Shown here: one piece after another, positions 6,778 to 21,776 of the stretch | Numbering within the stretch: the first letter of the stretch is position 1 | Layout of the letters: every line of letters starts with the position of its first letter | From: Cyanobacteria bacterium M_surface_10_m2_119 | Lineage (GTDB): Bacteria > Cyanobacteriota > Cyanobacteriia > PCC-6307 > Cyanobiaceae | NCBI GenBank assembly: GCA_016882525.1 | Contig: VGPU01000016.1 | Location: 1-47,626, forward strand | Reading direction: 5' to 3' | Length of the DNA: 47,626 nucleotides | The notes under the pieces: generated by a model | Database searches by the model: none | The model's input: only the letters and a program-made list of their open reading frames with translations | Told to the model about the DNA's origin: nothing | Position numbers and translations under genes: made by a program

Positions 6778-6808
6778 GGCCGCCCCCCTTCGGAGCCGGG
6801 CGCAGTGC

Positions 6809-7321
6809 TCAGCTGGCAGGGGCGTCAGGCGCCGTGATCAGGTTCACGGCGGAGAAGGCCAGACCGATGCCGAACAGGGTGCCGATGGCCCAGAGGCTGT
6901 CGCTCGGCCATTCCGCGATCAGCAGCACGCCCAGGATGGCCGTGACGATGCCATCCAGCAGCACCAGGCCCCTGGCGGGCCCCTGGCCGGCGGCGGCGCT
7001 GGCCAGCTCCATCACCCCTTCAAAGGCGAGCAGGAAGCCCACGAAGAGGGTGAGGCTCACCTCGCTCCCCACCGGGTACACCAGGGTCCAGACGCCGCCC
7101 CCGAGGTAGAGCAAGCCGGAGAGCAGGCGAAACAGCCTGCTGCTGGCATCGCCACCGGTGAGCCGCAGCAGCTGGGCGATGCCGGCGGCAACGGCCACCC
7201 CGCCGATGCCGATCGTGAGCAGGGTGGCGGAGACGAAGGGCAGGGCAATCGCCAGGCCGGCGGAGGCGAACAGGAGAGCGGCTGCGGTCCAGCGCAGGGC
7301 GGGTGAAGCGGGAGCGGACAC
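6809..7321 (-). CDS. HdeD-family (DUF308) membrane protein
   Basis: A 170-residue, almost wholly hydrophobic protein with about six predicted membrane helices in three hairpins. It shows Gly-rich helices such as IGIGGVAVAAGIAQLL and LLYLGGGVWTLVYP, plus GVMELASA and LDGIVTAILGVLLIAEWP, typical of HdeD/DUF308 proteins. HdeD is linked to acid resistance in E. coli; the role in cyanobacteria is not established. The start is GTG 7321. It converges with ggt (31 bases apart) and diverges from the oxidase gene run. Confidence 0.85.
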   Translation of the reverse strand: MSAPASPALRWTAAALLFASAGLAIALPFVSATLLTIGIGGVAVAAGIAQLLRLTGGDASSRLFRLLSGLLYLGGGVWTLVYPVGSEVSLTLFVGFLLAFEGVMELASAAAGQGPARGLVLLDGIVTAILGVLLIAEWPSDSLWAIGTLFGIGLAFSAVNLITAPDAPAS

Positions 7322-7506
7322 CGGAAAAACAGAGGAGCTGAAGAAACCCTAGATGTCGCCGCTGGCCGGATCGCTCTGTCAGGAGCCTCAGGCACGTGTT
7401 GATCCCCCCTTGTGGCAATTCATTACAACGCCAAGGCCCTCCAAAGAGGGCTGATCAGATTAATTCGGAATGCCTGCGCGGTCGATCGACGCGCCACCCG
7501 ATTCGG
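7322..7506. promoter_or_regulatory. divergent intergenic region, probable promoter of the oxidase gene run
   Basis: This 185-base gap separates HdeD (-) from the first DUF2231 gene (+). Its right half (about 7410-7475) is clearly richer in A/T than the coding DNA around it and contains TTGTGGCAATTCATTACAAC and CAGATTAATTCGG. A short perfect inverted repeat lies at 7436-7451. It is the only sizeable gap before a run of nine co-directional genes, so a promoter for that run probably lies here. I cannot fix a -35/-10 pair with confidence. Confidence 0.4.
7436..7451. other. small inverted repeat upstream of the oxidase genes
   Basis: GCCCTC, CAAA, GAGGGC forms a perfect 6-base stem with a 4-base loop, about 55 bases before the first DUF2231 start. 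It has no T run after it. It could be an operator half-site pair or a 5' leader hairpin, or be chance in GC-rich DNA. Confidence 0.2.
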
Positions 7507-8004
7507 ATGCCTGAGCTTCTGCCGGCGCTCAACGATCACAACCTTCCCTGGATGGACACGATCCATCCGATCGTTGTGCATTTCGTGATCGCGATGGGGC
7601 TGATCAGCTTTGTCTTTGATTTGATCGGCAAGCTTTTCCGTCGGAGTCAGTTGTTTGAGGTCAGTTTCTGGAATCTGCTGTTCGCCACCGCGGCGATTTT
7701 CGTGGCGATCATCTTCGGCCAGGTGGAGGCGGGTCTGGCCAATCCCTACGGGGCCTCCAGCGAGATCCTGAATCTGCACAGCACCATCGGCTGGTCGCTG
7801 GCGGGGGTGCTCTCGCTGATGTCCGGCTGGCGCTACGTGATCCGCAGCCGCGATCCCCAGGAGATTCCCCTCAGCTTTCTCGGCGCAGGGGCTCTGCTGA
7901 GCGCCCTGATCGTGGTGCAGGTCACCCTCGGCAATCAGTTGATCTGGGTTTACGGCCTGCACACCGTGCCCGTGGTGCAGGCCATGCGTGACGGGTTGGT
8001 GTGA
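7507..8004 (+). CDS. DUF2231 membrane protein (first of two), oxidase-linked
   Basis: A 165-residue protein with about four membrane helices. It has the family signature HPxxVHF (His20, His25) at the start of helix 1, a further His at the start of helix 3 (LHSTIGW, His91) and one just after helix 4 (GLHT, His152). The neighbouring paralogue keeps all four. I chose ATG 7507; the frame is open 37 codons further upstream, but that stretch is not membrane-like and lies in the AT-richer leader. The stop overlaps the next start by one base. Function is unknown. The four conserved membrane His are compatible with heme b or metal binding, which is inference only. Confidence 0.85.
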   Translation: MPELLPALNDHNLPWMDTIHPIVVHFVIAMGLISFVFDLIGKLFRRSQLFEVSFWNLLFATAAIFVAIIFGQVEAGLANPYGASSEILNLHSTIGWSLAGVLSLMSGWRYVIRSRDPQEIPLSFLGAGALLSALIVVQVTLGNQLIWVYGLHTVPVVQAMRDGLV

Positions 8005-8624
8005 TGGCGCCCTACATCTCCCCGCAACCGCCGATTGAGCAGCTGGCCTCCCAGCTGGGCCCCAATGGTCTCCCCTATGCCCTGCCGATCCATCCAAACC
8101 TGGTGCACCTCACGATCGGCCTGTTCGTGATTGCCATCGCCTTTGATATTGCCGGTGCGCTCTATCCGGTGGAGAAGCGCGTGTTTCGCTTCCTGGCCCT
8201 GCCGGTGACGCGTGCCGGCTTTCATGACGTGGGTTGGTACAATCTGCTGGCCTGCGCCATCGTGAGCTTCTTCACCGTGGCCGCTGGCTTCTACGAGCTG
8301 CTGCTGGCGGAGCCCCTGCCTGGCGTCATCAGCACCATCGGCCTGCAAAGCATGGAAACCATGCTGCTCCACGGCGTGGGCGGTGTGCTGATCCTGCTGG
8401 TGATCGTGGCGATGACGGTGTGGCGCGGCTACCAGCGCTTTGTGTGGCGCAAGGACATGGGCCGTCAGGTGCAGTGGCTCTACCTGCTGACAGGTCTGGT
8501 TCTGTTTCTGGTGATCGGCCTGCACGGCACCCTCGGTGCCGAGCTGGCGGCTGAATTCGGAGTGCACATCACCGCGGACCAGCTCCTTGCTGCTGGCGCT
8601 GATCTCAAGGAGGCGCTGCCATGA
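8004..8624 (+). CDS. DUF2231 membrane protein (second of two), oxidase-linked
   Basis: A 206-residue paralogue of the preceding protein. It repeats the same pattern: HPNLVHL (His30, His35), WYNLL in helix 2, LLHGVGG at helix 3 (His123) and IGLHG at the end of helix 4 (His174), followed by a longer soluble tail. ATG 8004 overlaps the upstream stop (TGATG), and a GTG one codon earlier is also possible. The last four bases overlap the start of oxidase subunit II, so translation is probably coupled. Both proteins are likely accessory or extra subunits of the oxidase, possibly replacing the electron entry lost from subunit II (inference). Confidence 0.85.
   Translation: MAPYISPQPPIEQLASQLGPNGLPYALPIHPNLVHLTIGLFVIAIAFDIAGALYPVEKRVFRFLALPVTRAGFHDVGWYNLLACAIVSFFTVAAGFYELLLAEPLPGVISTIGLQSMETMLLHGVGGVLILLVIVAMTVWRGYQRFVWRKDMGRQVQWLYLLTGLVLFLVIGLHGTLGAELAAEFGVHITADQLLAAGADLKEALP
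8607..8613 (+). promoter_or_regulatory. ribosome binding site of oxidase subunit II
   Basis: AAGGAGG lies seven bases before ATG 8621, inside the end of the second DUF2231 gene. It is a near-perfect Shine-Dalgarno sequence and supports the overlapping start. Confidence 0.7.
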
Positions 8625-9556
8625 CCAGTTCCACGCCGCGCCTGCGCCCGCTGCCCCTGATCGGACTTGCCCTCTGGGTTGGTCTGCTCGTGCTGGTGAG
8701 CGTCTGGATGAGCCAGCAGTCCTATCGCTGGCTGCCGGTCCAGGCCTCCACGGCCGCGCCCCTGGTGGATGGTCTGTTCAGCTTCGAGACGGGGGTGGGC
8801 ACCTTCGTGTTTCTGGCGGTGATTTCCGTGATGGCCTGGGTGATGCTCATGCACCGGGCTGAGAAGTACGACGAGAGTGACGCCGAGCCGATTGAGGGGA
8901 ACACCAGGCTGGAAGTGATCTGGACGGCCATTCCCTTTGTGCTGGTGATGGCGATCGCCATCTATGCCATCCGGGTGAATACCACCCTGGGGGTGCTAGG
9001 TCCGATGGAGCACATCCATGTGCGCGATCCGCTGGAGCAGCAGGGTGGCTATCCAGGTGATCGCCTTCCCCCCGAATCCGTTGAGGTGATTGCCCGGCAG
9101 TGGTCGTGGGAGTTCCGATACCCCAACTCTGGGGTCTCCTCCACCGAATTGCACCTGGCCGTCGATCAGCCGGTGACCTTCCGGTTGGTTTCTGAAGACG
9201 TGCTGCATGGCTTCTACATCCCCGCCTTTCGCCTGAAGCAGGACGTGGTGCCTGGCCGGGCCATCGACTTCAACCTCACCCCAACCCGGGAAGGGCGCTA
9301 CCGCCTGCGGGATTCCCAGTTCAGCGGCACCTGGTTCGCCGCCAATCAGGCCGATGTGGTGGTGGAGAGCGGCCCGGATCACCTCTCCTGGTTGAAGCAG
9401 GCCGCGGGCCAACCACTCCAGAGCGGCATCAGCGATGCGGTGCAGGAATACGCCGAGCGTGGCAAGAAAAGCAACCCCGGCTGGGCCACGGTGCCTCCAG
9501 CCCCGCCTCCGCAGGTGAATGTTCCCGGTTCCAACACCCTGCCCCATGACGCCTGA
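8621..9556 (+). CDS. ctaC: heme-copper oxidase subunit II lacking the CuA site (ARTO type)
   Basis: A 311-residue subunit II with hydrophobic segments near residues 13-32, 62-82 and 105-125, then a periplasmic cupredoxin domain (VIARQWSWEFRYP, EDVLHGFYIPAF). The CuA loop is destroyed. Where CuA proteins have C-x-E-x-C-G-x-x-x-H-x-x-M, this protein reads D231-S-Q233-F-S235-G-T-W-F239-A-A-N242, so both Cys, Glu, His and Met are replaced. Only the upstream His of DVLHGF remains. Loss of CuA is the known hallmark of the cyanobacterial alternative respiratory terminal oxidase (second cox cluster) and of quinol oxidases, so cytochrome c is unlikely to be the donor. The C-terminal tail is Pro-rich. 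It is followed 12 bases later by subunit I. Confidence 0.92.
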   Translation: MTSSTPRLRPLPLIGLALWVGLLVLVSVWMSQQSYRWLPVQASTAAPLVDGLFSFETGVGTFVFLAVISVMAWVMLMHRAEKYDESDAEPIEGNTRLEVIWTAIPFVLVMAIAIYAIRVNTTLGVLGPMEHIHVRDPLEQQGGYPGDRLPPESVEVIARQWSWEFRYPNSGVSSTELHLAVDQPVTFRLVSEDVLHGFYIPAFRLKQDVVPGRAIDFNLTPTREGRYRLRDSQFSGTWFAANQADVVVESGPDHLSWLKQAAGQPLQSGISDAVQEYAERGKKSNPGWATVPPAPPPQVNVPGSNTLPHDA

Positions 9557-9568
9557 GCTCGCTTTCCG

Positions 9569-11242
9569 ATGACCTCCGCCACCTTCCCCGCCAGCGAGCC
9601 CAAGCCCTCCTGGACCCGCTACTTCAGTTTCAACACCGACGCCAAGGTGATTGGAATCCAGTACATCGTGCTGGCCTTCTTTTATTTTCTGATCGGTGGC
9701 CTGCTGGCCATGATCATCCGCGGTGAGCTGATCACGCCCGCCGCCGATCTGGTTGACCGTACGGTTTACAACGGCATCTACACTATGCATGGAACAATCA
9801 TGTTGTTCCTGTTCATCTTTCCGGTTCTTAACGGTCTCAACAATCTGTTGATTCCCACCATGATCGGTGCGCCGGATATGGCCTTTCCTCGCTTGAATGC
9901 GGTGGCCTTCTGGCTGGTTCCGATCTTCGGTACTCTCCTGATCGCCAGCTTTTTTGTGCCCGGTGGGCCCGCTTATTCCGGTTGGTGGTCCTATCCGCCG
10001 GTGAGCATCCAAAACCCTCTGGGCCATCTGGTGAGCGGCCAGGGCCTGTGGCTCACGGCAGTGGCGCTCTCCGGCGTGTCGTCGATCATGGGGGCGGTCA
10101 ACTTCGTGACCACGATCATTCGCATGCGTGCTCCTGGCATGGGCTGGTTCCGCATGCCGGTGTTCTGCTGGACGGCACTGGCGGCCCAAACTCTGCAGCT
10201 GATTGGCCTCCCGGCCCTCACGGGCGGAGCGGTGATGCTGCTGTTCGATCTTGTGGCCGGCACGTCGTTCTACAGGCCGGAAGGGGGTGGTGATCCAGTG
10301 CTTTATCAGCACTTTTTCTGGTTTTATTCGCATCCGGCGGTCTACGTGATCATCCTGCCGGTGTTCGGCATTTTTTCCGAACTCTTTCCGGTGTATGCCC
10401 GCAAGCCCCTGTTCGGCTACGTCTATGTGGCTCTGGCCTCTTTCATCATCGTGGGCCTGGGTTTGGTGGTTTGGGTTCACCACATGTTTCCCAGTGGAGT
10501 GGCCCAGTGGATGCGCAATCTCTTCATGGTCACCACCATGCTGATTTCAGTGCCCACCGGCGTGAAGGTGTTTGCCTGGCTTGGCACCCTCTGGCGCGGC
10601 AAATTGCGGCTCACAACACCGATGTTGTTCTGCCTCGGTGGGCTCTTCAACTTCGTGTTCGCCGGCATCACCGGCATCATGCTGGCCACCGTGCCTGTGG
10701 ATATTCATGTCAGCAATACTTATTTTGTTGTCGGCCACTTTCACTATGTGATCTACGGGGCGGCCGTGATGGGCGTTTTCGCGGCGATCTACCACTGGTT
10801 TCCAAAGTTCATCGGGCGCATGCCCTACGAGGGGCTTGGCAAACTCCACTTCCTGCTTACGTTTGTTGGGGCGAACCTCAACTTCCTGCCCATGCACCCC
10901 CTGGGCCTGATGGGAATGCCGCGTCGTGTGTCCTCCTACGACCCCGAATTTGCCTTCTGGAACGTGCTCGCCAGCCTGGGGGCCTTCCTGCTCGGGGTGT
11001 CGATCATTCCCTTCCTGCTCAACATGGTGAGCTCCTGGGTGCTGGGCCCCAGGGCAACCCACAATCCCTGGAATGCCATCGGTCTGGAGTGGCTTCTGCC
11101 CTCGCCCCCGGCCGAGGACAACTTCGGCGAGCACGTGCCCACCGTGATCTCCCGGCCCTATGGCTACGGCCTGGGCCAGCCCCTGGTGGAGAACCAGGAG
11201 GCGATTGAACGGGAGCTCAACCTTCAGGAGGCCCGGGCATGA
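9569..11242 (+). CDS. ctaD: heme-copper oxidase subunit I (ARTO, A2-type)
   Basis: A 557-residue subunit I with about twelve membrane helices. The low-spin heme ligands are His74 (TMHGT) and His392 of the HFH pair, and the high-spin ligand is His390. CuB ligands are His255, His304 and His305, with Tyr259 positioned for the His-Tyr crosslink. The loop reads Y253-S-H-P-A-V-Y259: the Glu of the usual HPEVY is Ala257, and the preceding Tyr-Ser is the known mark of A2-type oxidases, which use Tyr/Ser in the D-channel. The K-channel Lys is present (TGVKVF, Lys333). Together with the CuA-less subunit II this defines a probable quinol oxidase. The 3' end overlaps subunit III by four bases. Several internal patches are less GC-rich than the flanks. 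Confidence 0.95.
   Translation: MTSATFPASEPKPSWTRYFSFNTDAKVIGIQYIVLAFFYFLIGGLLAMIIRGELITPAADLVDRTVYNGIYTMHGTIMLFLFIFPVLNGLNNLLIPTMIGAPDMAFPRLNAVAFWLVPIFGTLLIASFFVPGGPAYSGWWSYPPVSIQNPLGHLVSGQGLWLTAVALSGVSSIMGAVNFVTTIIRMRAPGMGWFRMPVFCWTALAAQTLQLIGLPALTGGAVMLLFDLVAGTSFYRPEGGGDPVLYQHFFWFYSHPAVYVIILPVFGIFSELFPVYARKPLFGYVYVALASFIIVGLGLVVWVHHMFPSGVAQWMRNLFMVTTMLISVPTGVKVFAWLGTLWRGKLRLTTPMLFCLGGLFNFVFAGITGIMLATVPVDIHVSNTYFVVGHFHYVIYGAAVMGVFAAIYHWFPKFIGRMPYEGLGKLHFLLTFVGANLNFLPMHPLGLMGMPRRVSSYDPEFAFWNVLASLGAFLLGVSIIPFLLNMVSSWVLGPRATHNPWNAIGLEWLLPSPPAEDNFGEHVPTVISRPYGYGLGQPLVENQEAIERELNLQEARA
11226..11231 (+). promoter_or_regulatory. ribosome binding site of oxidase subunit III
   Basis: AGGAGG ends seven bases before ATG 11239, within the end of subunit I, and supports translational coupling of the two subunits. 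Confidence 0.6.
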
Positions 11243-11847
11243 CCAGCACCACTCCCCCCAGCGGCTCGCTCGCTCCCCACGGCGAAGGTGGAGAGGGGCA
11301 TGCCAACCACAGCCTCACCGGCTTCGTCATCTTCCTGTGCTCCGAGAGCGTCATCTTCCTGGCGTTCTTCAGTGGCTTTGCCGTGCTGAAGACCTCAGCC
11401 CTCAACTGGTTGCCCGCCGGTGTGGAGGGTCTGGAATGGCGCATGCCGCTGATCAACACGATTGTCCTGGTGTCGAGTTCCGGCACGATCTGGCTGGCGG
11501 AGGTTCTCAAGGCCCAAGGCCGTCTCTGGGGTTTCCGGGCCCTCTGGCTGCTCACCATGGCCCTGGGGGCCTATTTCCTCTATGGCCAGGCCGTGGAGTG
11601 GAGCGGTCTTGCGTTCGGGTTCACCTCAGGCACCTTCGGCGGCACCTTCTATCTGCTCACCGGTTTTCACGGTCTGCATGTGGCGACCGGTGTGCTGCTG
11701 ATGGCCCTGATGCTTGTGAAATCCTTTCTTTCCGGTAACTACGACGGGGGTGAAGAGGGCGTCCAGGCCACATCCCTGTTCTGGCACTTTGTGGATGTGA
11801 TCTGGATCATCTTGTTTGTGCTCATCTACGTGTGGCAACGTCATTGA
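11239..11847 (+). CDS. ctaE: heme-copper oxidase subunit III
   Basis: A 202-residue, five-helix subunit III, short like other cyanobacterial and quinol-oxidase versions. It keeps the helix motif FLCSESVIFLAFF with the conserved Glu, the TGFHGLHVATG loop and the C-terminal LFWHFVDVIWIILF helix. It should cap subunit I and stabilise turnover. ATG overlaps the subunit I stop (ATGA) and has a good Shine-Dalgarno. The next gene, a GMC flavoprotein, begins ten bases after the stop, so transcription very likely continues. Confidence 0.94.
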   Translation: MTSTTPPSGSLAPHGEGGEGHANHSLTGFVIFLCSESVIFLAFFSGFAVLKTSALNWLPAGVEGLEWRMPLINTIVLVSSSGTIWLAEVLKAQGRLWGFRALWLLTMALGAYFLYGQAVEWSGLAFGFTSGTFGGTFYLLTGFHGLHVATGVLLMALMLVKSFLSGNYDGGEEGVQATSLFWHFVDVIWIILFVLIYVWQRH

Positions 11848-11851
11848 GGAG
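11846..11851 (+). promoter_or_regulatory. ribosome binding site deciding the start of the first GMC gene
   Basis: GAGGAG lies six bases before ATG 11858. The frame is open 14 codons further upstream, but this site and the immediately following Rossmann motif favour ATG 11858. Confidence 0.55.
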
Positions 11852-11857
11852 CCGCCC

Positions 11858-13375
11858 ATGATCATCGACGACCGCCATTACGACGTGATCATCATCGGCA
11901 GCGGCGCTGCCGGTGGCACGATCGCCGCTGCCCTTTCTGAGGCGGGCCATGCCGTGCTCCTGCTCGAGCGCGGTGGCAGCATGCCCCTGGCCGACCAGAA
12001 CCTGGCTGGCGTGGAGCTGTTCCGCAAGGACCGCTACCACCCCAACGAGCGCTGGTTCGGCACCGATGGCGATCCCTTCGCGCCGCAGACGATCTACGCC
12101 TTCGGCGGCAACACCAAGATCTGGGGGGGGGTGCTCGAGCGCATGCGCGAGCGGGAGTTCGCCGGCCTGCCGCTGCAGGAGCGCCAGGCGCCGGCCTGGG
12201 GACTGAGCTACGCCGACATGGAGCCCTGGTATGCCGAGGCTGAACGCCTCTACCGGGTGCATGGTCAGCGCGGCAGCGATCCCACCGAGCCCCAAGGCAC
12301 CGCTCCCTTCGGCTTTGCCCCCAAGCCGGTGGAGCCGTTTCTGTCGGCCCTGGCGGACGACCTCCAGCGCCATGGTGTGCACCCCTATCGCCTGCCCCTG
12401 AGCTGGTCGGAGTCCAGCCGTGATCCCAGTGGTGATGCGGAGCTGTTCGGGGTGGAGCCGGCCCGGCAGCGGGTCGAGGTGGTGGTGCGCGGCGGCGCGG
12501 CGGTGCAGCGCCTGCACGTGAATCCCTCGGGCAGCGAGGTGCGCGGGGTGGAGGCCCTGATCGATGGCCAGAGTTGGCTGTTCAGCGGCCACCAGGTGGT
12601 GCTGGCGGCTGGAGCGATCAACACCCCGGCGATCCTGCTGCGTTCCGGCAGTGATCACCACCCCCGCGGTCTGGCCAATGGCTCCGACCAGGTGGGCCGC
12701 AACCTGATGAAGCTTCAGCTCACGTCGATCCTGCAGCTCGCCAGCGAGCCCAACGACGGCCGCTATGGCCGTGGGTTCGGGGTCAACGACTATCTCTGGG
12801 GAGACCAGAACGTGTCATTCCCGCTCGGTTCGATTCAGAGTGGCGGTGGCGTGTTGCAGGACGCCCTGTTTGCCGAATCGCCGCCGGTGCTCTCGCTGGT
12901 GACCAAGCTGCTGCCCGACTTCGGACTGGAGCAACTGGCTTCCCGTTCCATCACCTGGTGGGCGATGAGCCCCGTGCTGCCGGATCCACACAACCGCGTC
13001 AGCCTGCGCAATGACCACATCCAAGTGAACTATCGGGTGAACAACTTTGAGGCCCACGACCGGCTCGTGTATCGCTGGATCGATACCCTCAAGGCCGTGG
13101 AGGCCGATCCCCTCACCCGGGTGGTGCGTGGCGCCCCCACCCATCCCCGGGGCGAGGCGCCGCTCTCCGCCATCGGCTATGCCTGTGGCACCTGTCGCAT
13201 GGGCGAGAACCCAGCCTCCTCGGTGGCGAATCTCCAGGGTCGCACCCATGAGGTTGCCAATCTCACCATCGCCGATGCCAGCCTCCTGCCGGCCTGCCCG
13301 GCCATGGGTTTCGGCCTCACGGTGATCGCCAACGCCCTGCGGATCGTCGAGGGCCTGTCCAGCGTGCTCCGATGA
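11858..13375 (+). CDS. GMC-family FAD flavoprotein with altered active site
   Basis: A 505-residue glucose-methanol-choline family protein. The N-terminal Rossmann fold is intact (IIIGSGAAGGTIA, residues 11-23), as is the FAD-domain FGGNTKIWGGVLERMR. GMC enzymes normally use His three residues before the GTCRMG motif; here that residue is Tyr441 (YACGTCRMG). The second catalytic His/Asn, in the usual GxNPxLT, is Gly484 (AMGFGLT). The Cys-rich segment present in the second GMC protein is absent. It may therefore bind FAD without ordinary alcohol oxidation, use another chemistry, or act as a partner of the second GMC protein. No signal peptide is seen. The stop overlaps the glucosidase start by four bases. 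Frame is kept across a run of nine G near 12123. Confidence 0.88.
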   Translation: MIIDDRHYDVIIIGSGAAGGTIAAALSEAGHAVLLLERGGSMPLADQNLAGVELFRKDRYHPNERWFGTDGDPFAPQTIYAFGGNTKIWGGVLERMREREFAGLPLQERQAPAWGLSYADMEPWYAEAERLYRVHGQRGSDPTEPQGTAPFGFAPKPVEPFLSALADDLQRHGVHPYRLPLSWSESSRDPSGDAELFGVEPARQRVEVVVRGGAAVQRLHVNPSGSEVRGVEALIDGQSWLFSGHQVVLAAGAINTPAILLRSGSDHHPRGLANGSDQVGRNLMKLQLTSILQLASEPNDGRYGRGFGVNDYLWGDQNVSFPLGSIQSGGGVLQDALFAESPPVLSLVTKLLPDFGLEQLASRSITWWAMSPVLPDPHNRVSLRNDHIQVNYRVNNFEAHDRLVYRWIDTLKAVEADPLTRVVRGAPTHPRGEAPLSAIGYACGTCRMGENPASSVANLQGRTHEVANLTIADASLLPACPAMGFGLTVIANALRIVEGLSSVLR

Positions 13376-16062
13376 CGGTATCCCTTCCCTCCGAGGCCAA
13401 GCGGATTGCCGAGCGTGACTCCGGTCATGCCCCCTGGAGCCTGTGGGGCAGCTACCTGCCCGATCGCCAGTGGGGCACCGTCCGCGAGGACTATTCCGCC
13501 GATGGCGATGCCTGGCGCTCCTTCCCACACGATCACGCCCGCTCACGCGTCTATCGCTGGGGTGAAGACGGTCTGCTGGGCATCTGCGATGAGCAGTGCC
13601 GGCTGTGTTTTTCCCTGGCCCTGTGGAACGGCCAGGATCCCATCCTCAAGGAGCGCCCCTTTGGCCTGAGCAACCCTGAGGGGAACCACGGCGAAGACCT
13701 CAAGGACTACTACTTCCACATCGCCAACACCCCTACCCACAGCTTCATGCGTGGGCTGTACAAATATCCCCAGGCTCGCTTCCCCTATGAGCAGCTGGTG
13801 GCGGAGAATGGCCGCCGCGACCGCACCCAGCCGGAATACGAGCTGGTGGATACGGGCATCTTCGATGAGGGCCGTTACTTCGATGTGTTCATCGAGTACG
13901 CCAAGGCCTCACCCACCGACCTGCTGATCCGCATCCGGGCGATCAACCGCGGTCCCGACGCGGCGCCGCTCAGCCTGCTGCCCACGCTCTGGCTGCGCAA
14001 CACCTGGGCCTGGGGCTATCCCGATCAGATCCGACAACCGTTGCGGCTCGACGGGAATCGGCTGATCACGCCCACCCTCCCATCCCTCGACTCCTATGAG
14101 CTGCTGCTCAAGGGATCGGCCCAGTGGCTGTTCACCGACAACGAGACCAACGATGAGCGTCTCTACGGCCAGCCCAACACCGCCCCCTTTCAGAAGGACG
14201 GCTTCCACCGCTTCCTCATCGAGGGGGAGCAGGGTGCCGTCAACCCTGGTGGTGAGGGCACCAAGGCTGCGCCGCTGCTGCAGCACACCCTGAAGCCGGG
14301 CGAGACCTGGACGGTGGAGCTGCGTTTGCGGGCGCTGGTGCCGCACGACCCTGCCGACACACCCGAGGACGATGATCCACTGCCGTTCGGCGATGCCTTC
14401 AACGCCTTGTTCGAGGCCCGCGAGCACGAATGGCAGGCCTACATGGAACACCGCTTGCCGGGACTGACGCCCGACGACCGGCTCATCCACAGCAGTGCCC
14501 TGGCCGGGCTGCTGTGGTGCAAGAAGTATTACGGCTGGAGCGTGGTGCGCTGGCTGGATGGTGATCCCACCCATCCGGCGCCACCGCCGGAGCGCATGCA
14601 CTCGGAGACGGCTCCGTGGCGTCGTCTGCATGCCGACGACATCATCGCCATGCCGGATGCCTGGGAGTACCCCTACTTCTGCCAGTGGGACCTGATGTTC
14701 CACGCCGTGTCGTTTGCCATCGTCGATCCGGCCACGGCCAAGCAGCAGTCGATGCTGCTGCGCTCGCCCCATTACACGGCTCCCAACGCCCAGACGCCGG
14801 CGTACGAGTGGGCCCTGTCGGATCCCAACCCACCAATCGGGGCCTGGGCCGTGATGCGGATCTTCCAGATCGAGCGCAAGCAGGCCGAGGGCACGGCCGA
14901 CTTCGCCTACCTGCGGGAAGCGCTGCGCAAGCTGCTCCTCGAGTACGGCTGGTGGGCCAACCGCAACGATCGCTCGGGCGACAACATCTTTGAAGGGGGC
15001 TTCCTCGGCCTTGACAACATCGCCGTGTTTGACCGGCGATTTCCACTCTCCGATGGAAGTCACATTCTGCAATGCGATGGCACTGCATGGATGGCTTCGC
15101 TGAGCCTGAACCTGCTCAACATAGCGGTAGAGCTCAGTCGTGATGAGCCTGAGTATGCCGATATCTGCGAGCGCTTTGTTTACGACTTCTTGGTGCTGAC
15201 TTTTGCGCTCAATGTTCCGGCGCAACGTGAGTACATAAACTGGAATGAAGAGGATGGTTTTTACTATGACGTGATCAAGCGGCCCGATGGCAGCACCGAT
15301 TATCTCCGCACCCGCTCCGTTTCCGGTTTGATTCCACTGCTGGCCGTTGCCAGTTTTGATGTGCAGACCGTTGAGCGCCTGCCGATGTTGGATGTGCTCA
15401 AGAGTGGCTCCTGGCTGATTCACGAGCGCACCTCACCCACCTGGCTGGAGGCCAACATGGGGCGCTGGCATAACGATCGCCTCTTGCTTGCCCTGGTGCC
15501 GGAGGACCGCCTGCGGCGGATCTGTCAACGCCTGTTCGACGAGGATGAATTCCTGTCGCCCTACGGCATTCGGGCCCTCTCCAAGGTGTATGAGGACCAT
15601 CCCTATCGCTACACGGCGGGCTCCGACAGCGAGGAGCTGCGCTATAGCCCTGCGGATAGCCCGGTCGCGATGTTCGGTGGCAATTCAAACTGGCGTGGGC
15701 CTGTTTGGATGCCGATCAACTTCCTCCTGATTGAGTCGTTGCAGAAGTTTGCCCATTTTTATGGCGACAGCTTCAAGGTGGAGTTTCCCACCCGTTCCGG
15801 CAACTGGATCAATCTCTGGGACGCTTCGCTGCAGCTTCAGAAGCGCCTTGTGGGTATCTTCCGCCGCGATGCCATGGGACGGCGTGCATTCAACGGCGAT
15901 GTTGACCTGTTCCAGAATGATCCCCACTGGCGGGATCTGCTCCTGTTTAACGAATATTTTCATGGTGACAACGGCCGCGGTGTCGGTGCCTCTCACCAGA
16001 CCGGCTGGAGTGCCGTGGTGGCCAAGATGATCAATCAGCTGCATCGTTATCCCAGCGGTTGA
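13372..16062 (+). CDS. GH63/MGH1-like glucosidase
   Basis: An 896-residue cytoplasmic protein without signal peptide. The N-terminal 400 residues form a beta-rich domain. The C-terminal half is an (alpha/alpha)6 catalytic region with EYPYFCQWDLMFHAVSFAI, GGFLGLDNIAVFDR, TAWMASLSLNLL and GGNSNWRGPVWMPINFLL, which match GH63/MGH1-type glucosidases. The family hydrolyses alpha-glucosides; members act on glycan glucose, glucosylglycerate or mannosylglycerate. A compatible-solute glucoside is a reasonable cyanobacterial substrate, but the sequence does not prove it. Joined to the first GMC gene by ATGA; the second GMC gene starts 54 bases downstream. The 15040-15300 part is visibly less GC-rich than its surroundings. 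Confidence 0.85.
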   Translation: MTVSLPSEAKRIAERDSGHAPWSLWGSYLPDRQWGTVREDYSADGDAWRSFPHDHARSRVYRWGEDGLLGICDEQCRLCFSLALWNGQDPILKERPFGLSNPEGNHGEDLKDYYFHIANTPTHSFMRGLYKYPQARFPYEQLVAENGRRDRTQPEYELVDTGIFDEGRYFDVFIEYAKASPTDLLIRIRAINRGPDAAPLSLLPTLWLRNTWAWGYPDQIRQPLRLDGNRLITPTLPSLDSYELLLKGSAQWLFTDNETNDERLYGQPNTAPFQKDGFHRFLIEGEQGAVNPGGEGTKAAPLLQHTLKPGETWTVELRLRALVPHDPADTPEDDDPLPFGDAFNALFEAREHEWQAYMEHRLPGLTPDDRLIHSSALAGLLWCKKYYGWSVVRWLDGDPTHPAPPPERMHSETAPWRRLHADDIIAMPDAWEYPYFCQWDLMFHAVSFAIVDPATAKQQSMLLRSPHYTAPNAQTPAYEWALSDPNPPIGAWAVMRIFQIERKQAEGTADFAYLREALRKLLLEYGWWANRNDRSGDNIFEGGFLGLDNIAVFDRRFPLSDGSHILQCDGTAWMASLSLNLLNIAVELSRDEPEYADICERFVYDFLVLTFALNVPAQREYINWNEEDGFYYDVIKRPDGSTDYLRTRSVSGLIPLLAVASFDVQTVERLPMLDVLKSGSWLIHERTSPTWLEANMGRWHNDRLLLALVPEDRLRRICQRLFDEDEFLSPYGIRALSKVYEDHPYRYTAGSDSEELRYSPADSPVAMFGGNSNWRGPVWMPINFLLIESLQKFAHFYGDSFKVEFPTRSGNWINLWDASLQLQKRLVGIFRRDAMGRRAFNGDVDLFQNDPHWRDLLLFNEYFHGDNGRGVGASHQTGWSAVVAKMINQLHRYPSG

Positions 16063-16116
16063 CGTTCACCCCAGAACGTCGAGCGGCGATCACGACTTCT
16101 CTTCGCTCCCCCACCG

Positions 16117-17751
16117 ATGGCCCTGGTGTCCTCTCAGGATCTGCTCACCGGCATCCACTGTTCGCCGTTGCCCGTGGCCGGCCAGCAGCACGTGGCCGAC
16201 GGCGCTCATTTCGATGTGGTGATCATCGGCAGTGGCGCCGGTGGCGGCACCCTGGCCCGCACCCTGGCGCCCACCGGCCTGAAGATCCTGGTGCTGGAGC
16301 GGGGCGACTGGCTGCCCCAGGAGCCCCAGAACTGGGATGCGGAGGAGGTGTTCCAGAAGAACCGCTACGTGTCGAAGGACACGTGGTACGACAAGCACGG
16401 CAAGCCCTTCCAGCCTGGCAGCCATTACTTCGTGGGCGGGGCCACCAAGATGTATGGCGCCGCCCACTTCCGGCTGCGCCAGCAGGATTTCGAGGAGCTG
16501 GTGCACTTTGACGGCATTTCGCCGGCCTGGCCCCTGCGCTACAGCGACTTCGAGCCCTGGTATCAGCGGGCCGAGGAGATGTATCACGTGCATGGCCTGC
16601 GCGGTGAGGACCCCACCGAGCCCCCGTGCAGCGGCCCCTATCCCCATCATCCGATTGCCCACGAGCCCCGCATCCAGAAACTGGTGGATGACCTGCGGGC
16701 TGCCGGGCTGCATCCCTCCCATGCCCCCTGTGGCGTGATGCTGGATGAAGCGAACCTGGCCTTCAGCCGCTGCCGCAAGTGCAACTGCTGTGACGGCTTT
16801 CCCTGCCTGGTGCACGCCAAGAGCGATGCCGATGTGCTGGGGATGCGGCCGGCCCTCGCCAGCAGCAACGTGTCACTGCTCACCCGTGCCGAGGTGCGCC
16901 GCCTCGTCACCGACGCCAGTGGCCGGAGTGTGACGGCTGTGGAGCTGCAGCGCGGTGGTGAACCCCTGCGGGTGAGCGGCGATGTGGTGGTGGTGAGCTG
17001 CGGTGCGGCCAACAGCGCCCGGCTGTTGTTGATGTCAGCCAGCGATCAGCATCCCCGGGGCCTGGCCAATGGCTCTGACCAGGTGGGCCGGAACTACATG
17101 TTCCACAACAGCAAGGCGATGGTGGCCCTGGCCCATGAGCCCAACACCACCGTGTTTCAGAAAACCATCACGATCAACGACTGGTATCTGGGGGATGCCG
17201 AGTTCGATTACCCGATGGGCAACATCCAGATGACCGGCAAGACCAACGGCCAGATCATGAAGGGCTATGCGCCCTTGGAAACCTTCCTGATGCCCGGTTG
17301 GTCGATGGACAAGATCGCCGAGCATGCCCTGGATTTCTGGATCTCCTCCGAAGATCTGCCGGATCCCGACAACCGGGTGACGATCGACGGCCAGGGGCAT
17401 ATTCACCTGAGCTACACCCCCAACAACCAGACCGCTGCTCAGCGCTTGTATGGACGCCTCACCGGCATGCTCGACCGTCTCTACCTGCGCAACCACCTGG
17501 TGGAGCGGCAGATCTACATCAAGAGCATGATGAGCATTGCGGCGGTGGGTCACCAGGCCGGCACCTGCCGCTTCGGCACCGATCCGGCCACCTCGGTGCT
17601 CGATCTCCACTGCAAGGCCCACGAGCTCGACAACCTCTACGTGGTGGATACGAGCTTCATGCCCACCATCGGTGCGGTGAATCCCTCGCTCACCGCCATC
17701 GCCAATGCGTTGCGGGTGGGCGAGCATCTGCGCGAACGGCTGCGCGCCTGA
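16117..17751 (+). CDS. GMC-family oxidoreductase with Cys-rich cluster
   Basis: A 544-residue GMC flavoprotein. After about 30 extra N-terminal residues comes the Rossmann motif VVIIGSGAGGGTLA (residues 34-47), then VGGATKMYGAAHFR. A dense Cys group, C219-RK-C222-N-C224-C225-DGFP-C230 followed by AKSDAD, resembles the segment that binds a [3Fe-4S] cluster in FAD-dependent glucose dehydrogenase catalytic subunits. The catalytic pair is intact: His479 in HQAGTCRFG and Asn522 in GAVNPSLT. It is therefore probably an active dehydrogenase that passes electrons on rather than to O2. It shares RGLANGSDQVGRN with the first GMC protein, so the two are paralogues. The chloride transporter gene begins 36 bases downstream. 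Confidence 0.9.
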   Translation: MALVSSQDLLTGIHCSPLPVAGQQHVADGAHFDVVIIGSGAGGGTLARTLAPTGLKILVLERGDWLPQEPQNWDAEEVFQKNRYVSKDTWYDKHGKPFQPGSHYFVGGATKMYGAAHFRLRQQDFEELVHFDGISPAWPLRYSDFEPWYQRAEEMYHVHGLRGEDPTEPPCSGPYPHHPIAHEPRIQKLVDDLRAAGLHPSHAPCGVMLDEANLAFSRCRKCNCCDGFPCLVHAKSDADVLGMRPALASSNVSLLTRAEVRRLVTDASGRSVTAVELQRGGEPLRVSGDVVVVSCGAANSARLLLMSASDQHPRGLANGSDQVGRNYMFHNSKAMVALAHEPNTTVFQKTITINDWYLGDAEFDYPMGNIQMTGKTNGQIMKGYAPLETFLMPGWSMDKIAEHALDFWISSEDLPDPDNRVTIDGQGHIHLSYTPNNQTAAQRLYGRLTGMLDRLYLRNHLVERQIYIKSMMSIAAVGHQAGTCRFGTDPATSVLDLHCKAHELDNLYVVDTSFMPTIGAVNPSLTAIANALRVGEHLRERLRA

Positions 17752-17787
17752 ACAAACTCCCCCTACTGGTCCCGCGAGTGCCGCCCG

Positions 17788-19077
17788 ATGGTTCGTCAGC
17801 TGATCCGGCAGCTTGTTCAGCTTGCCCTGCTGGGAGTGTTGGTGGGCCTCGCCTGCTGGCCGTTCAACCTGCTGGATCGCTGGCAGGACGCTCTGCTGCG
17901 CCAGTTGCCCGCCTTCAGCGGTGAACCCTGGCAGCCCCAGACTGTGTTGCTCGCCTGCGCCCCCTTGGTGGCTGTGCCGGTGCTGCTGACGCTCCAGCGC
18001 GGCGTGTGGGCCGGCGGCGCTGGATCCGGCATCCCCCAGACCATGGCCAGCGTGGAGGATCCGGTCCTGGCCCCCCGCCTTCTGGGCCTCCGTCCCACCC
18101 TGCAGCGCCTTGGCCTCTGGACGATTGCCACGCTGAGCCTCCTGCCCCTGGGGCGTGAGGGCCCTGTGGTGCAGGTGGGTGCGGCGGTGGCCCAGGGACT
18201 GCGCAGCCGGTTTCCGCGTCTGCTGGGTGAACTCACCACGGCCGATCTGCTGGCCGTGTCTGCCGGAGCGGGCCTGGCGGGTGGCTTCAACACCCCGTTG
18301 ATGGGGGTGGTGTTCGTGGCGGAGGAATTCACCAACCGCTTCATGGCGCCGCTGGTGTGGCCGGCGCTGGTGATCTGCGCCGTGGCGGCGGCCTTCAGCA
18401 ATCTCACCGGCCAGCCGGAATTCGCCCTGGGCATCCTGGCTGTGCGGCCCAGCGAGCTCACCCAGATGCTCTGGGCGATGCCGATCGGTGTGCTGGGCGG
18501 GTTGCTGGGCGCCGGTTTCGGCCGGTTGCTGCTGGCCCTCACCCGGCGGTTCCTGCGCCTGGCCAGGAGCCATCCCCTAGTCCTGGGTCTGGCCATCGGC
18601 ACGCTGCTCAGCCTCTTTCTGCTGGCGAGCGGGGGCTCCAGCGGCGGAGACGGCGAGGCGCTGATGGGCCAGCTGATCGCGGTGGAGGGATCCCGGGCCA
18701 CGGGCCATGGCGGCCCGCTCGGCGATCTGCTCACCCTGTTGCTGCGGGTTCTCGGACCTGCCCTTTCCCTGGGGGCCGGGATTCCTGGCGGTCTGATCGA
18801 TCCGGCCCTCGCCTTCGGCGCCCTGCTCGGTCGCGCTGTGGGGGGCCTGGCCGGTCTGACTGGCATGGGCCTGGCGCTGGGCATGGCGGCGGGGCTCGCC
18901 GGGGCGACCCAGCTGCCGGTGATGACGGTGTTGTTCGCCCTGCGTCTGGCCGGCGATCAACAGCTCCTGCCCGGAATGCTTCTGGCCGCCGTCCTGGCAG
19001 CGCTGGTGAGCCGTCTGATCGTGCCTCAGCCCATCTATCACGCCCTCGCCGAGGTGAGTCGACCAGCCGCTTCATGA
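17788..19077 (+). CDS. ClC-family chloride channel or Cl-/H+ exchanger
   Basis: A 429-residue ClC protein with the three pore signatures: GAGSGIPQ, GREGPVVQVGAAVA (gating Glu124) and GAGIPGGLIDP. The internal pair Glu179-Glu180 (VVFVAEEF) corresponds to the Glu202/Glu203 region of E. coli ClC-ec1, where Glu203 carries protons. That favours an exchanger over a passive channel, though alignment by eye is not proof. It lies last in the co-directional run that begins with the oxidase genes and could balance charge or pH, which is inference. It ends 13 bases before the convergent doxX-like gene. Confidence 0.93.
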   Translation: MVRQLIRQLVQLALLGVLVGLACWPFNLLDRWQDALLRQLPAFSGEPWQPQTVLLACAPLVAVPVLLTLQRGVWAGGAGSGIPQTMASVEDPVLAPRLLGLRPTLQRLGLWTIATLSLLPLGREGPVVQVGAAVAQGLRSRFPRLLGELTTADLLAVSAGAGLAGGFNTPLMGVVFVAEEFTNRFMAPLVWPALVICAVAAAFSNLTGQPEFALGILAVRPSELTQMLWAMPIGVLGGLLGAGFGRLLLALTRRFLRLARSHPLVLGLAIGTLLSLFLLASGGSSGGDGEALMGQLIAVEGSRATGHGGPLGDLLTLLLRVLGPALSLGAGIPGGLIDPALAFGALLGRAVGGLAGLTGMGLALGMAAGLAGATQLPVMTVLFALRLAGDQQLLPGMLLAAVLAALVSRLIVPQPIYHALAEVSRPAAS

Positions 19078-19090
19078 GCGGGGAGCCGGT

Positions 19091-19591
19091 TCAGCCAGCC
19101 AGCAGGCTCTGAACCAGATCGGCGATCAAGAGGTTGTCGATCGAGAACAGGCCGCCGCCGCAGCCGATCAGCACGAGGCACATCACCACGTACATGGCGG
19201 CCTTCTCCGAGCTGGGGGGCTCGCCCACCCCCATCGGGCCGGCATAGTCGCCGGCGGGAATCTGGTAGGGGTCGGGGGCGATGAAGGGAAAACCGGAGCG
19301 GATCTCCAGCACCATCGCGTAGGCCATCGAAACCAGGATCGCCAGCGATGCCAGGGGCGTCAGCAGTCCGGGCAGCAGGGCGATGCCCGCGGCGAACATC
19401 GAGAAGGCCGAGAGGAAGCAGAGCCACTGCGGCGTGTTCAGCGCCTGGGCCCAGGTGGAGAGGTTGCGCAGCTTGGGCCAGCCGTGGCGGATGAAGCACA
19501 CCCCCATGAACAGCCGCAGCAGCAGCAGCGCGGCCTGGGCCGCCGCGGAAGGCGCAACCGGCACCAGCAGTTCCACCACCGTGACGTCCAT
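19091..19591 (-). CDS. DoxX-family membrane protein
   Basis: A 166-residue protein of four membrane helices. The N-terminal helix reads LLLLRLFMGVCFIRHGWPKL, with the DoxX/SURF4 pattern of Arg, then HGWPKL, at the end of helix 1. I chose ATG 19591; the frame is open 34 codons further upstream, but that stretch is polar and overlaps the neighbouring glgX leader. DoxX-type proteins are linked to redox or sulfur metabolism in some bacteria; the substrate here is unknown. The gene is divergent from glgX, so the 91-base gap should hold both promoters. Confidence 0.85.
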   Translation of the reverse strand: MDVTVVELLVPVAPSAAAQAALLLLRLFMGVCFIRHGWPKLRNLSTWAQALNTPQWLCFLSAFSMFAAGIALLPGLLTPLASLAILVSMAYAMVLEIRSGFPFIAPDPYQIPAGDYAGPMGVGEPPSSEKAAMYVVMCLVLIGCGGGLFSIDNLLIADLVQSLLAG

Positions 19592-19682
19592 CAATTCGAC
19601 CTGATTTTCTCTGCAACGTAGGCAGCGGCCCTGGCCCTGGCCACCATTGGCGGGTGACCACACACAGAGCGAGGGCCTGGCT

Positions 19683-21776
19683 GTGACCACCATTCCCCTG
19701 GGCCTCTCCGCCGGCTGCAGCGCGCCGCTCGGAGCCAGCCTGCAGCCGGGGGGAGTGAACTTCAGCGTGCATGCCCGGGGCTGCGCTCACCTGGAGATCT
19801 GCCTCTTCGAGGGGCTCGAGGATCCTGAGCCGGCGGCGGTGCTGGTGCTCGAGGGGGAACAGCACCGCAGCGGCTCCTACTGGCATGGCCTGGTGGCCGG
19901 GCTGGGCCCCGGCCAGCTCTATGGCTACCGCCTGCCGGCCGATCCCGACGGCCTGCTGCTCGATCCCTATGCCCCGGCCCTGGCGGTGCCGCCGGGCTAC
20001 AGCCGGCAGCGGGGCCAGCGGCGCCAGGGCGGTGACGGCTGGGCCGGGGCGATGAAGAGTGTGGTGGCCGACCTCGGCAGCTACGACTGGCAGGGGGATC
20101 GCCCCCTGCGCCGGCCCGCCCGCGAAACGGTGATCTACGAGCTGCATGTGCGCGGCTTCACGGCCGATCCCAGCGCCGGCATCCCCGCCGGGCGGGCCGG
20201 CACCTACGCGGGGCTGATCGACAAGATCCCCTACCTGCAGGAGCTGGGGATCACCGCGGTTGAGCTGCTGCCGGTGTTCGCCTTCGACGCCCAGGCGGCG
20301 CCGGCGGAGCTGGTGAACTACTGGGGCTACCAGCCGATCACGGTGCTGGCCCTCCATCCGGCCTACACCAGCGGCAGCGATCCGCTGGCGGCCCTGGATG
20401 AATTCCGCGACCTGGTGAAGGCCCTGCACCGCGCCGGCATCGAGGTGATCCTGGATGTGGTCTTCAACCACACCGCCGAGGGGGCGATGGCCGGGCCGGC
20501 GGCCGGGCCCACCCTCTCCTACCGGGGCCTGGCCCCCCACGACTACTACCTGCTGGAAGGGGAAGGCGACAGCCTGCGCGATCTGGATGTGACCGGTTGC
20601 GGCAACACCTTCAATGCCAACAACCCCGTGGTGCGGCGGCTGATCCGCCACAGCCTGCGCCACTGGGTGGAGCAGATGCACGTGGACGGCTTTCGCTTCG
20701 ATCTGGCCGCCGTGCTCTCCCGCGATGAGGAGGGCAAGCCGGAGCCACGCCCGCCGATCCTGTTCGATCTCGACAGCGATCCCGTATTGGCGGGCACCAA
20801 GCTGATCGCCGAGGCCTGGGATGCGGCCGGTCTCTACGAGGTGGGCAGCTTCGTGGGCGAGCGCTGGCAGGAGTGGAACGGCCGCTTCCGCGACGACCTG
20901 CGTCACTTCCTCAAGGGGGACGGCGGCTTCGCCTGGGCGGCGGCCCAGCGCCTGATCGGCAGCCCGGACATCTATGGCCCCCGGCGGCGGGAGGTGGAGG
21001 TGAGCGTGAATTTCCTCACCTGCCACGACGGCTTCACCCTGGCCGACTGGGTGAGTTTCAACGCCAAGCACAACGAGGCCAACGGGGAGGCCAATCGCGA
21101 CGGTTCCGATGACAACGCCAGCTGGAACTGCGGCGTGGAGGGCCCCAGCGACGATCCGGAGGTGCTGGCCCTCAGGGCCCGCCAGCAGCGCAATGCCCTC
21201 TGCCTGCTGCTGCTCGCGGCCGGCACGCCGATGCTGGCCATGGGCGATGAGGTGGGCCGCAGCCAGCAGGGCAACAACAACGCCTACTGCCAGGACAACC
21301 CGATCAGCTGGTTCGACTGGACCCTGGTGGAGCGCCATGCCGACCTGCTGCGCTTCACCCGCGAGCTGATCGCCTACCGGCAGCGGCGCGATGTGGTGGT
21401 GGATCACACCAGCCTGCCGCTGGCCGAGCTGCTGCGGCGCTGCGCCGTGGAGTGGCATGGCGTGGAGCCCTGCCGGCCCGACTGGGGCCCCGACTCCCAC
21501 TCCCTGGCCCTGAGCTGCACCAGCAGCGAGCACCGCTTTCGGATGCACGTGATGGTGAATGCCTGGTGGCAGCCCCTGCGCTTCACCCTGCCGCCCACCG
21601 GCCTGGCGGATGGCCGCTGGCACCGTTGGATCGACACCGCCCGGCCCAGCCCCGACGACATCGTCGCCTGGGGAGAGGCGCCGCCGCTGCCCGACCACGC
21701 CTGCCAGGTGCAGGCCCGCTCGGTGGTGGTGCTGCTGGTGCGCCAGCGTGACGTGGAGAGTGGAACAGCACGTTGA
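19683..21776 (+). CDS. glgX: glycogen debranching enzyme (isoamylase type, GH13)
   Basis: A 697-residue GlgX/isoamylase. It begins with a CBM48-like domain (LGASLQPGGVNFSVHA, about residues 12-100). The GH13 barrel follows: ELHVRGFTADPSAG, DVVFNHTAEG, VDGFRFDLAAVL with the Asp nucleophile, IAEAWDAAG with the Glu acid/base and FLTCHDGFTLADWVSFNAKH with the transition-state HD. It cleaves alpha-1,6 branches of glycogen. I chose GTG 19683 because the conserved domain starts directly after it; a TTG twelve codons upstream is possible. The stop overlaps ATG 21776 of the disrupted ClC-like gene by one base. Confidence 0.93.
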   Translation: MTTIPLGLSAGCSAPLGASLQPGGVNFSVHARGCAHLEICLFEGLEDPEPAAVLVLEGEQHRSGSYWHGLVAGLGPGQLYGYRLPADPDGLLLDPYAPALAVPPGYSRQRGQRRQGGDGWAGAMKSVVADLGSYDWQGDRPLRRPARETVIYELHVRGFTADPSAGIPAGRAGTYAGLIDKIPYLQELGITAVELLPVFAFDAQAAPAELVNYWGYQPITVLALHPAYTSGSDPLAALDEFRDLVKALHRAGIEVILDVVFNHTAEGAMAGPAAGPTLSYRGLAPHDYYLLEGEGDSLRDLDVTGCGNTFNANNPVVRRLIRHSLRHWVEQMHVDGFRFDLAAVLSRDEEGKPEPRPPILFDLDSDPVLAGTKLIAEAWDAAGLYEVGSFVGERWQEWNGRFRDDLRHFLKGDGGFAWAAAQRLIGSPDIYGPRRREVEVSVNFLTCHDGFTLADWVSFNAKHNEANGEANRDGSDDNASWNCGVEGPSDDPEVLALRARQQRNALCLLLLAAGTPMLAMGDEVGRSQQGNNNAYCQDNPISWFDWTLVERHADLLRFTRELIAYRQRRDVVVDHTSLPLAELLRRCAVEWHGVEPCRPDWGPDSHSLALSCTSSEHRFRMHVMVNAWWQPLRFTLPPTGLADGRWHRWIDTARPSPDDIVAWGEAPPLPDHACQVQARSVVVLLVRQRDVESGTAR

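Follow-up and report, generated by a model that had tools for sequence, protein, structure and literature searches.

Why should the genes of a terminal respiratory oxidase be followed, on the same strand, by genes for two flavoproteins of the GMC family and a glycoside hydrolase? This arrangement is found in a 47,626 nucleotide stretch of DNA from Cyanobacteria bacterium M_surface_10_m2_119 (contig VGPU01000016.1, positions 1 to 47,626; C16 in our numbering), which is referred to throughout as the window and forms part of a 118-contig, 2.62 Mb genome (G000) estimated to be 99.9% complete. Comparison with other genomes indicates that two modules have been joined. One consists of an alternative respiratory terminal oxidase (ARTO), a type of oxidase widespread in cyanobacteria, and a flavoprotein, here termed GMC1, that lacks the catalytic residues of its family; the other is the gene of a GH63-like hydrolase paired with that of an intact GMC dehydrogenase-like protein, GMC2. 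The GH63-GMC2 pair is a separate module, fixed behind ARTO-GMC1 in one lineage.

A conserved eight-gene order in picocyanobacteria

The run in the window comprises nine co-directional genes on the + strand (7507-19077), flanked on both sides by genes on the - strand (6809-7321 and 19091-19693). The first eight encode, in order, two DUF2231 membrane proteins (D1 and D2), oxidase subunits II, I and III (coxII, coxI and coxIII), GMC1, the GH63-like hydrolase and GMC2; the ninth encodes a ClC-type transporter. A preliminary description, made from the letters of the window alone, had placed the nine genes at the same coordinates and named families with which the Pfam matches agree (DUF2231 twice, COX2, COX1, COX3, GMC twice, MGH1-like_GH with Glyco_hydro_63, and Voltage_CLC). 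It also had the genes meeting at overlaps of 1 or 4 bases or at gaps of 10-54 bases: overlaps of 4 bases are present at 8001/8004, 8621/8624, 11239/11242 and 13372/13375, and the gaps of 12, 10, 54 and 36 bases fall within the range given, the last two separating GMC2 from GH63 and from ClC respectively, whilst no 1-base overlaps are present.

Homologues of the GH63 gene were fetched with 10 kb flanks, using one genome per species, and the best 80 of 260 confirmed stretches were compared. Sixty-five of these loci are picocyanobacterial and 15 are not; 13 of the 65 were left out, the end of the contig being too near, leaving 52 that were testable. The rows are partly redundant, as the same genome can be present under two labels (e.g. 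L035 and L055). The order D1-D2-coxII-coxI-coxIII-GMC1-GH63-GMC2 is kept in 48 of the 52 testable loci and is therefore far beyond chance. Loci with the full order span Cyanobium, freshwater Synechococcus, Vulcanococcus, Synechococcus sp. RCC307 and Synechococcus sp. TMED19, and across the 65 picocyanobacterial loci the GH63 proteins are 66-92% identical to that of the window. All six further relatives with enough contig (G010, G007, G021, G017, G035 and G036) have the same order, several of them being genomes already among the 80 loci. The four exceptions are L089, from which GMC2 is missing, L101, which has GH63 only, L090, where of the eight genes just GH63 and GMC2 are present, and L093, in which part of the oxidase block is lost (see below). 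That relatives would link oxidase, GMC and GH63 genes, as the preliminary description expected of a neighbourhood comparison, is borne out for the CuA-less oxidase.

A scan of positions 6700-19800, limited to two simple patterns, found no pair of promoter and terminator after 11847 that might divide it: there is a single sigma-70-like promoter, on the - strand (1.7 expected), and there are 12 terminator-like matches (6.8 +/- 3.4 expected), the two of them that lie on the + strand past 11847, at 12310 and 15339, being both intragenic.

The oxidase core and its association with GMC1

The core of the unit, D1-D2-coxII-coxI-coxIII, is the known type-1 ARTO. Its coxI (ctaD2/coxA3 type; 9569-11242) belongs to the heme-copper oxidase subunit I family (PF00115, E 1.3e-150) and its coxIII (ctaE2/coxC3 type; 11239-11847) matches PF00510 (E 3.1e-30), whilst coxII (ctaC2/coxB3 type; 8621-9556; COX2_TM and COX2) encodes a subunit II without CuA. 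The absence of CuA, already remarked on from the window, extends to the relatives: the motif C-x3-C-x3-H occurs in none of 75 ARTO subunit II rows (72 distinct), and is found in the subunit II of the second oxidase of the same genome (L153). The coxI of the second oxidase, 55% identical, is located at G000:C2:63982-65547. The motif YSHP in coxI was dropped as a marker of ARTO, being present in all 75 rows, the non-ARTO row included.

As expected for a type-1 ARTO, two extra genes lie directly upstream of subunit II. D1 (7507-8004; 165 aa; PF09990, E 8e-35) is taken to begin at the ATG at 7507, the usual choice, although the list of open reading frames (ORFs) opens it at an upstream GTG at 7396; D2 (8001-8624; 207 aa; PF09990, E 1.8e-38) has a GTG start. 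They are paralogues, and the four conserved histidines of each align between them: positions 20, 25, 91 and 152 of D1 are invariant in 73 of 73 rows, and in D2 positions 31, 36 and 124 are found in 71 of 71 rows and position 175 in 69 of 71. These residues are located in or beside hydrophobic stretches, of which D1 has four, and it is a reasonable guess from this pattern that D1 and D2 are candidate heme-b proteins. According to the relevant parts of PMC6616624, it is uncertain whether cyanobacterial bo3-type quinol oxidases possess more than three subunits; there and in parts of PMC10119275 the subunit make-up and electron donor of ARTO appear as unsettled, and the enzyme is linked to iron reduction and survival at low iron.

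The association of ARTO with GMC1 extends well beyond the picocyanobacteria. A class-wide sample of 242 cyanobacterial genomes, with a threshold of at least 67% identity for ARTO coxI, contains 123 ARTO coxI copies, 99 of which are followed on the same strand, at no more than 4 kb, by a GMC1-like gene; the genomes of a further nine have GMC1 on a separate contig or in some other place. Conversely, each of the 101 genomes that carry GMC1 at full length has ARTO, 99 by the coxI threshold and the last two (G116 and G042) on inspection of the contigs (L158 and L152). For the threshold counts (99, 2, 21 and 120) Fisher's test gives p ~1e-43, a value that is descriptive, since the species are not independent. 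Fifteen coxI rows with identities of 59-66% were assigned to another oxidase lineage, and none of them is linked to GMC1. At 18 of 18 further ARTO loci without this GH63 alongside, drawn from 10 genomes of the same family and 8 of other families, the gene after coxIII encodes a GMC protein.

Two features of the oxidase genes in relatives may be recorded here. The ARTO coxI is split into two overlapping pieces in different frames in L100 (6142-7828) and in L040 (Synechococcus sp. RCC307), in what appears to be a frameshift or a sequence error. Furthermore, in L036, L039, L040, L095, L100, L104 and others, the block coxII-coxI-coxIII-GMC1 falls at two levels of divergence from the window (coxI 88-97% as against about 65-78% identical), whilst in several loci the flanking D1/D2 and GH63/GMC2 differ less, a pattern such as might be left by exchange of the middle block or by its drifting apart.

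GMC1 has lost the catalytic residues of its family

GMC1 (11858-13375; 505 aa; PF00732 and PF05199) has the GMC fold and the motif that contacts flavin adenine dinucleotide (FAD), but not the catalytic His with its Asn or His partner. The catalytic His is missing from 79 of 80 rows (77 distinct), where Y, G, S, L, N or others stand instead; the catalytic Asn is missing from all 80, one of which has a gap there and the other 79 G, S or P. A paralogue of 25% identity (L050) was excluded from the residue counts. None of 81 rows departs from the FAD-contact residues G14, G16, G19, E37 and D473, an argument for a bound flavin being still of importance to the protein. The suggestion that both GMC proteins are dehydrogenases with a Cys cluster has to be given up for GMC1, which has neither catalytic pair nor cluster; the cluster is confined to GMC2.

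In a tree of 59 GMC rows, a single branch with support of 100/100 separates 41 sequences on the ARTO side from 18 on the GH63 side, the catalytic pair being lost on the former and retained on the latter. Four of the ARTO-linked proteins (L154-L157, from G108, G119, G183 and G104) retain the motif of four cysteines (Cys4) with the pair gone, replaced by N and S; the motif is missing from the remaining 37 ARTO-side rows. If the root of this unrooted tree were on the GH63 side, loss of the pair would have preceded loss of the Cys cluster. The model of GMC1 (mean predicted local distance difference test score 78, with a conserved but weakly modelled stretch at 316-343) most resembles the membrane-bound fructose dehydrogenase (Z 36, root-mean-square deviation 3.2, 467 aligned) and then FAD glucose dehydrogenase (Z 35). 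Taken together, the residues point to GMC1 being probably an ARTO-dedicated flavoprotein rather than a sugar dehydrogenase. Of 81 rows, 75 have cysteine 443 and 71 have cysteine 480; these two residues, near the lost pair, possibly form a replacement redox or metal site.

Many cyanobacteria inherit an oxidase along with a flavin protein that is without the residues used for catalysis in its family, and in small Synechococcus-like species the genes of a hydrolase and of an intact dehydrogenase-like protein come after them; the poorly understood ARTO would on this evidence have partners that have gone unrecognised. Through a class-wide partner with this oddity, a GMC protein with no catalytic pair, the feeding of ARTO also becomes directly accessible to genetics.

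The GH63-GMC2 pair

GMC2 (16117-17751) has the GMC domains, the catalytic pair and the Cys4 motif. Its H479 and N522, retained in 68 of 68 rows (64 distinct), correspond in an alignment to the catalytic His and Asn of the FAD glucose dehydrogenase 6a2u, which is also its best solved relative by sequence (E 1.4e-34). The cysteines C219, C222, C225 and C230 are found in 67 of 68 rows, with a spacing unlike that of 6a2u, and probably bind an iron-sulphur (Fe-S) cluster.

The hydrolase (13372-16062; 896 aa; PF22422, E 1e-16; PF03200, E 1.7e-8) resembles in its modelled fold the endoplasmic reticulum (ER) alpha-glucosidase I (Z 20.9), YgjK (18.3) and MgH/GgH (17-18). Its substrate could not be named from solved structures, as a search of PDB sequences gave no match at E 0.001 and MgH/GgH rank below the ER glucosidase I. 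D548 and E861, which do not vary across 45 rows, are by their motifs candidates for the catalytic acid/base pair. If GH63 were an inverting enzyme acting on an alpha-glucoside, it would yield beta-glucose, the anomer with which FAD glucose dehydrogenases are associated. The characterised GgH is inverting, according to the relevant part of its description (PMC6608630).

At least 33 of the 242 genomes have a GH63 gene and a GMC2-like gene within 5 kb of one another, and at least 31 of these pairs are on the same strand within 2.5 kb. Order and spacer vary across the class, and the five loci inspected for neighbours include three with an aquaporin-type gene and two with an SDR gene. The GMC protein beside GH63 has an intact catalytic pair and Cys cluster in other families too. 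As ARTO-GMC1 occurs without an adjoining GH63 (18 of 18 loci, above) and the pair occurs without ARTO (13 of 33 listed genomes), the arrangement is best described as two joined modules, not one old pathway. A sequence in which GH63 frees a sugar that a GMC protein then oxidises, as the preliminary description had it, is still reasonable, since GH63 adjoins the GMC protein with the pair and the cluster.

A second GH63, about 47-52% identical, is found directly after GMC2 in L091 (14494-17130), L112 (14284-16971) and L119 (13996-16248). A metagenome-assembled genome of Verrucomicrobiales (L111, 1928-4552) has a GH63 that is 59% identical to that of the window, as against 44-52% for the listed non-picocyanobacterial GH63s, reflecting either a transfer or a binning error.

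Possible functions of the combined unit

There is, in our estimation, about an even chance that the locus is an extended picocyanobacterial type-1 ARTO operon of two modules, in which GMC1 is a partner of ARTO and electrons from sugar reach the ARTO branch via GMC2. The flavin of GMC1 would take electrons from another donor, or dock one, and pass them to the oxidase branch; the histidines of D1 and D2 may hold heme-b on the same path. GH63 would cut a cytosolic alpha-glucoside and GMC2, with its predicted FAD and probable Fe-S cluster, would oxidise the sugar released, so that placing the second module behind the first would vent sugar electrons through quinone or the partners of ARTO to oxygen. 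The eight genes would form a single transcript. The unit yields a specific hypothesis, that freshwater picocyanobacteria burn internal sugar in this way. A bolder version, which we regard as unlikely, would make ARTO a larger flavo-heme assembly, with GMC1 as a flavin subunit derived from a sugar dehydrogenase by loss of the pair and then of the Fe-S motif, D1 and D2 as heme-b subunits, and GMC2 and the glucosidase feeding a sugar-to-oxygen electron valve.

A number of observations weigh against the coupling of sugar oxidation to ARTO through these proteins. One GMC1 row (L108) has a His at the catalytic position. Fifteen of the 123 ARTO copies, 14 of them in family f32, are in genomes without GMC1 among the matches listed, and therefore ARTO can work without it; HetR is found in 14 of 14 f32 genomes tested as against 7 of 16 others, which fits f32 being a heterocystous family without proving it. 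No gene for a small subunit or cytochrome c subunit adjoins GMC2, the rest of the genome not having been searched for one. Across the class, the GH63-GMC2 pair shows no association with ARTO (20 of 33 listed genomes, Fisher p 0.19); in the picocyanobacterial genome G198 (L171) it lies 8 kb away from ARTO-GMC1, in L090 it is present with no adjacent oxidase, and in L093 (Cyanobium sp. FGCU6, 6819-9938) it remains whilst D1 is broken and coxII and coxI are missing.

The last three loci, the genomes with the pair and no ARTO, and the aquaporin-type and SDR neighbours found elsewhere would all suit a pair that oxidises sugar inside the cell independently of ARTO and came to lie behind it with no functional coupling. 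However, the pair directly follows GMC1 in 48 of 52 loci, with GH63 identities of 67-92% to the window, and in the window GMC1 and GH63 overlap by 4 bases; we consider such independence possible, if somewhat improbable. GMC1 might instead be a pseudoenzyme that assembles or regulates ARTO, as a chaperone or a flavin-based sensor of redox state or light, carrying no respiratory electrons and with GH63-GMC2 merely transcribed behind it. A lost pair beside a kept FAD motif, a Cys4 motif surviving in only four ARTO-side rows and the lack of a class-wide tie between GH63-GMC2 and ARTO would agree with this, but the invariance of the FAD-contact residues speaks against it and we know of no assembly factor of this type, so that we hold a pseudoenzyme to be unlikely.

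Two further proposals concern what the electrons are for. Ferric reductases usually combine a flavin with membrane histidines, and ARTO, D1/D2 and GMC1 might together act mainly as a plasma-membrane Fe(III) reductase, with GMC1 as the flavin site and D1/D2 carrying the hemes. The impaired iron reduction and uptake of a Synechocystis ctaD2/ctaE2 mutant, cited in part of PMC10119275, would be in keeping with such a role; the GMC1 fold, however, is not a known ferric-reductase flavin fold, and we rate the proposal as quite unlikely. The preliminary description had offered an overflow route or one for recovery from salt, and the breakdown of stored glucosylglycerol for that purpose draws on the fact that the GH63 clan includes glucosylglycerate and mannosylglycerate hydrolases, as stated in the relevant part of PMC6608630. 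The same part reports that the characterised GgH leaves glucosylglycerol uncut. The GgpS model TIGR02398 has no match in the 99.9%-complete genome of the window, and glucosylglycerol is for that reason disfavoured both as the substrate of GH63 and as the basis of salt recovery. G010 and G017 likewise have the cluster and no match (G007, G008 and G021 have both), whilst most genomes of the same genus that have GgpS are without this GH63. This last proposal is accordingly very improbable.

Flanking genes

The ClC-type transporter gene (17788-19077; PF00654, E 3e-57) had at first been counted as part of the module. It is directly downstream of the unit in none of the 48 full loci, and it was rejected as a member of the system and placed outside the conserved unit; in L089, where GMC2 is missing, a ClC gene is found 0.7 kb after GH63. 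Further along the window, two consecutive ORFs on the + strand (21773-22531 and 22574-23131), the first of which matches part of the ClC family profile, may be one frameshifted second ClC gene. The gene on the - strand at 19091-19693 encodes a small membrane protein, presumably DoxX-like, that recurs close to the cluster in many relatives.

Comparison with known systems

Among solved structures, GMC2 comes closest in sequence, and GMC1 in its model, to the bacterial enzymes FAD glucose dehydrogenase (6a2u) and fructose dehydrogenase (7w2j). GMC2 shares the His/Asn pair with them and has cysteines in about the place of their Cys cluster; unlike them, it is not adjoined by a gene for a small or cytochrome c subunit, and GMC1 is without both pair and cluster. 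The GH63 of the window has fold and Pfam membership in common with MgH/GgH, the ER alpha-glucosidase I and YgjK, but at 896 aa is about twice the length of MgH/GgH.

A search of the open-licence literature found no paper describing a link between ARTO and a GMC protein, a weak result given that most subscription journals lie outside such a search. The picocyanobacterial ctaC2-D2-E2 cluster of Dore et al. 2023 (PMC10119275) contains the same oxidase genes, described there as clustered in 85% of Synechococcus reference genomes; its main text, as distinct from the figure and datasets, does not contain the terms GMC, glucos or DUF2231. The closest counterpart of the core is the type-1 ARTO operon of Anabaena sp. 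PCC 7120, alr2729-alr2730-coxB3-coxA3-coxC3, which in the relevant part of PMC6616624 likewise has two extra genes followed by a CuA-less subunit II and then subunits I and III, alr2729 and alr2730 being likened to D1 and D2 by position alone. The Anabaena operon, as described there, ends at coxC3 without a GMC gene, which fits the 14 f32 genomes with HetR and no GMC1 among the matches listed, whereas in the window GMC1 comes next.

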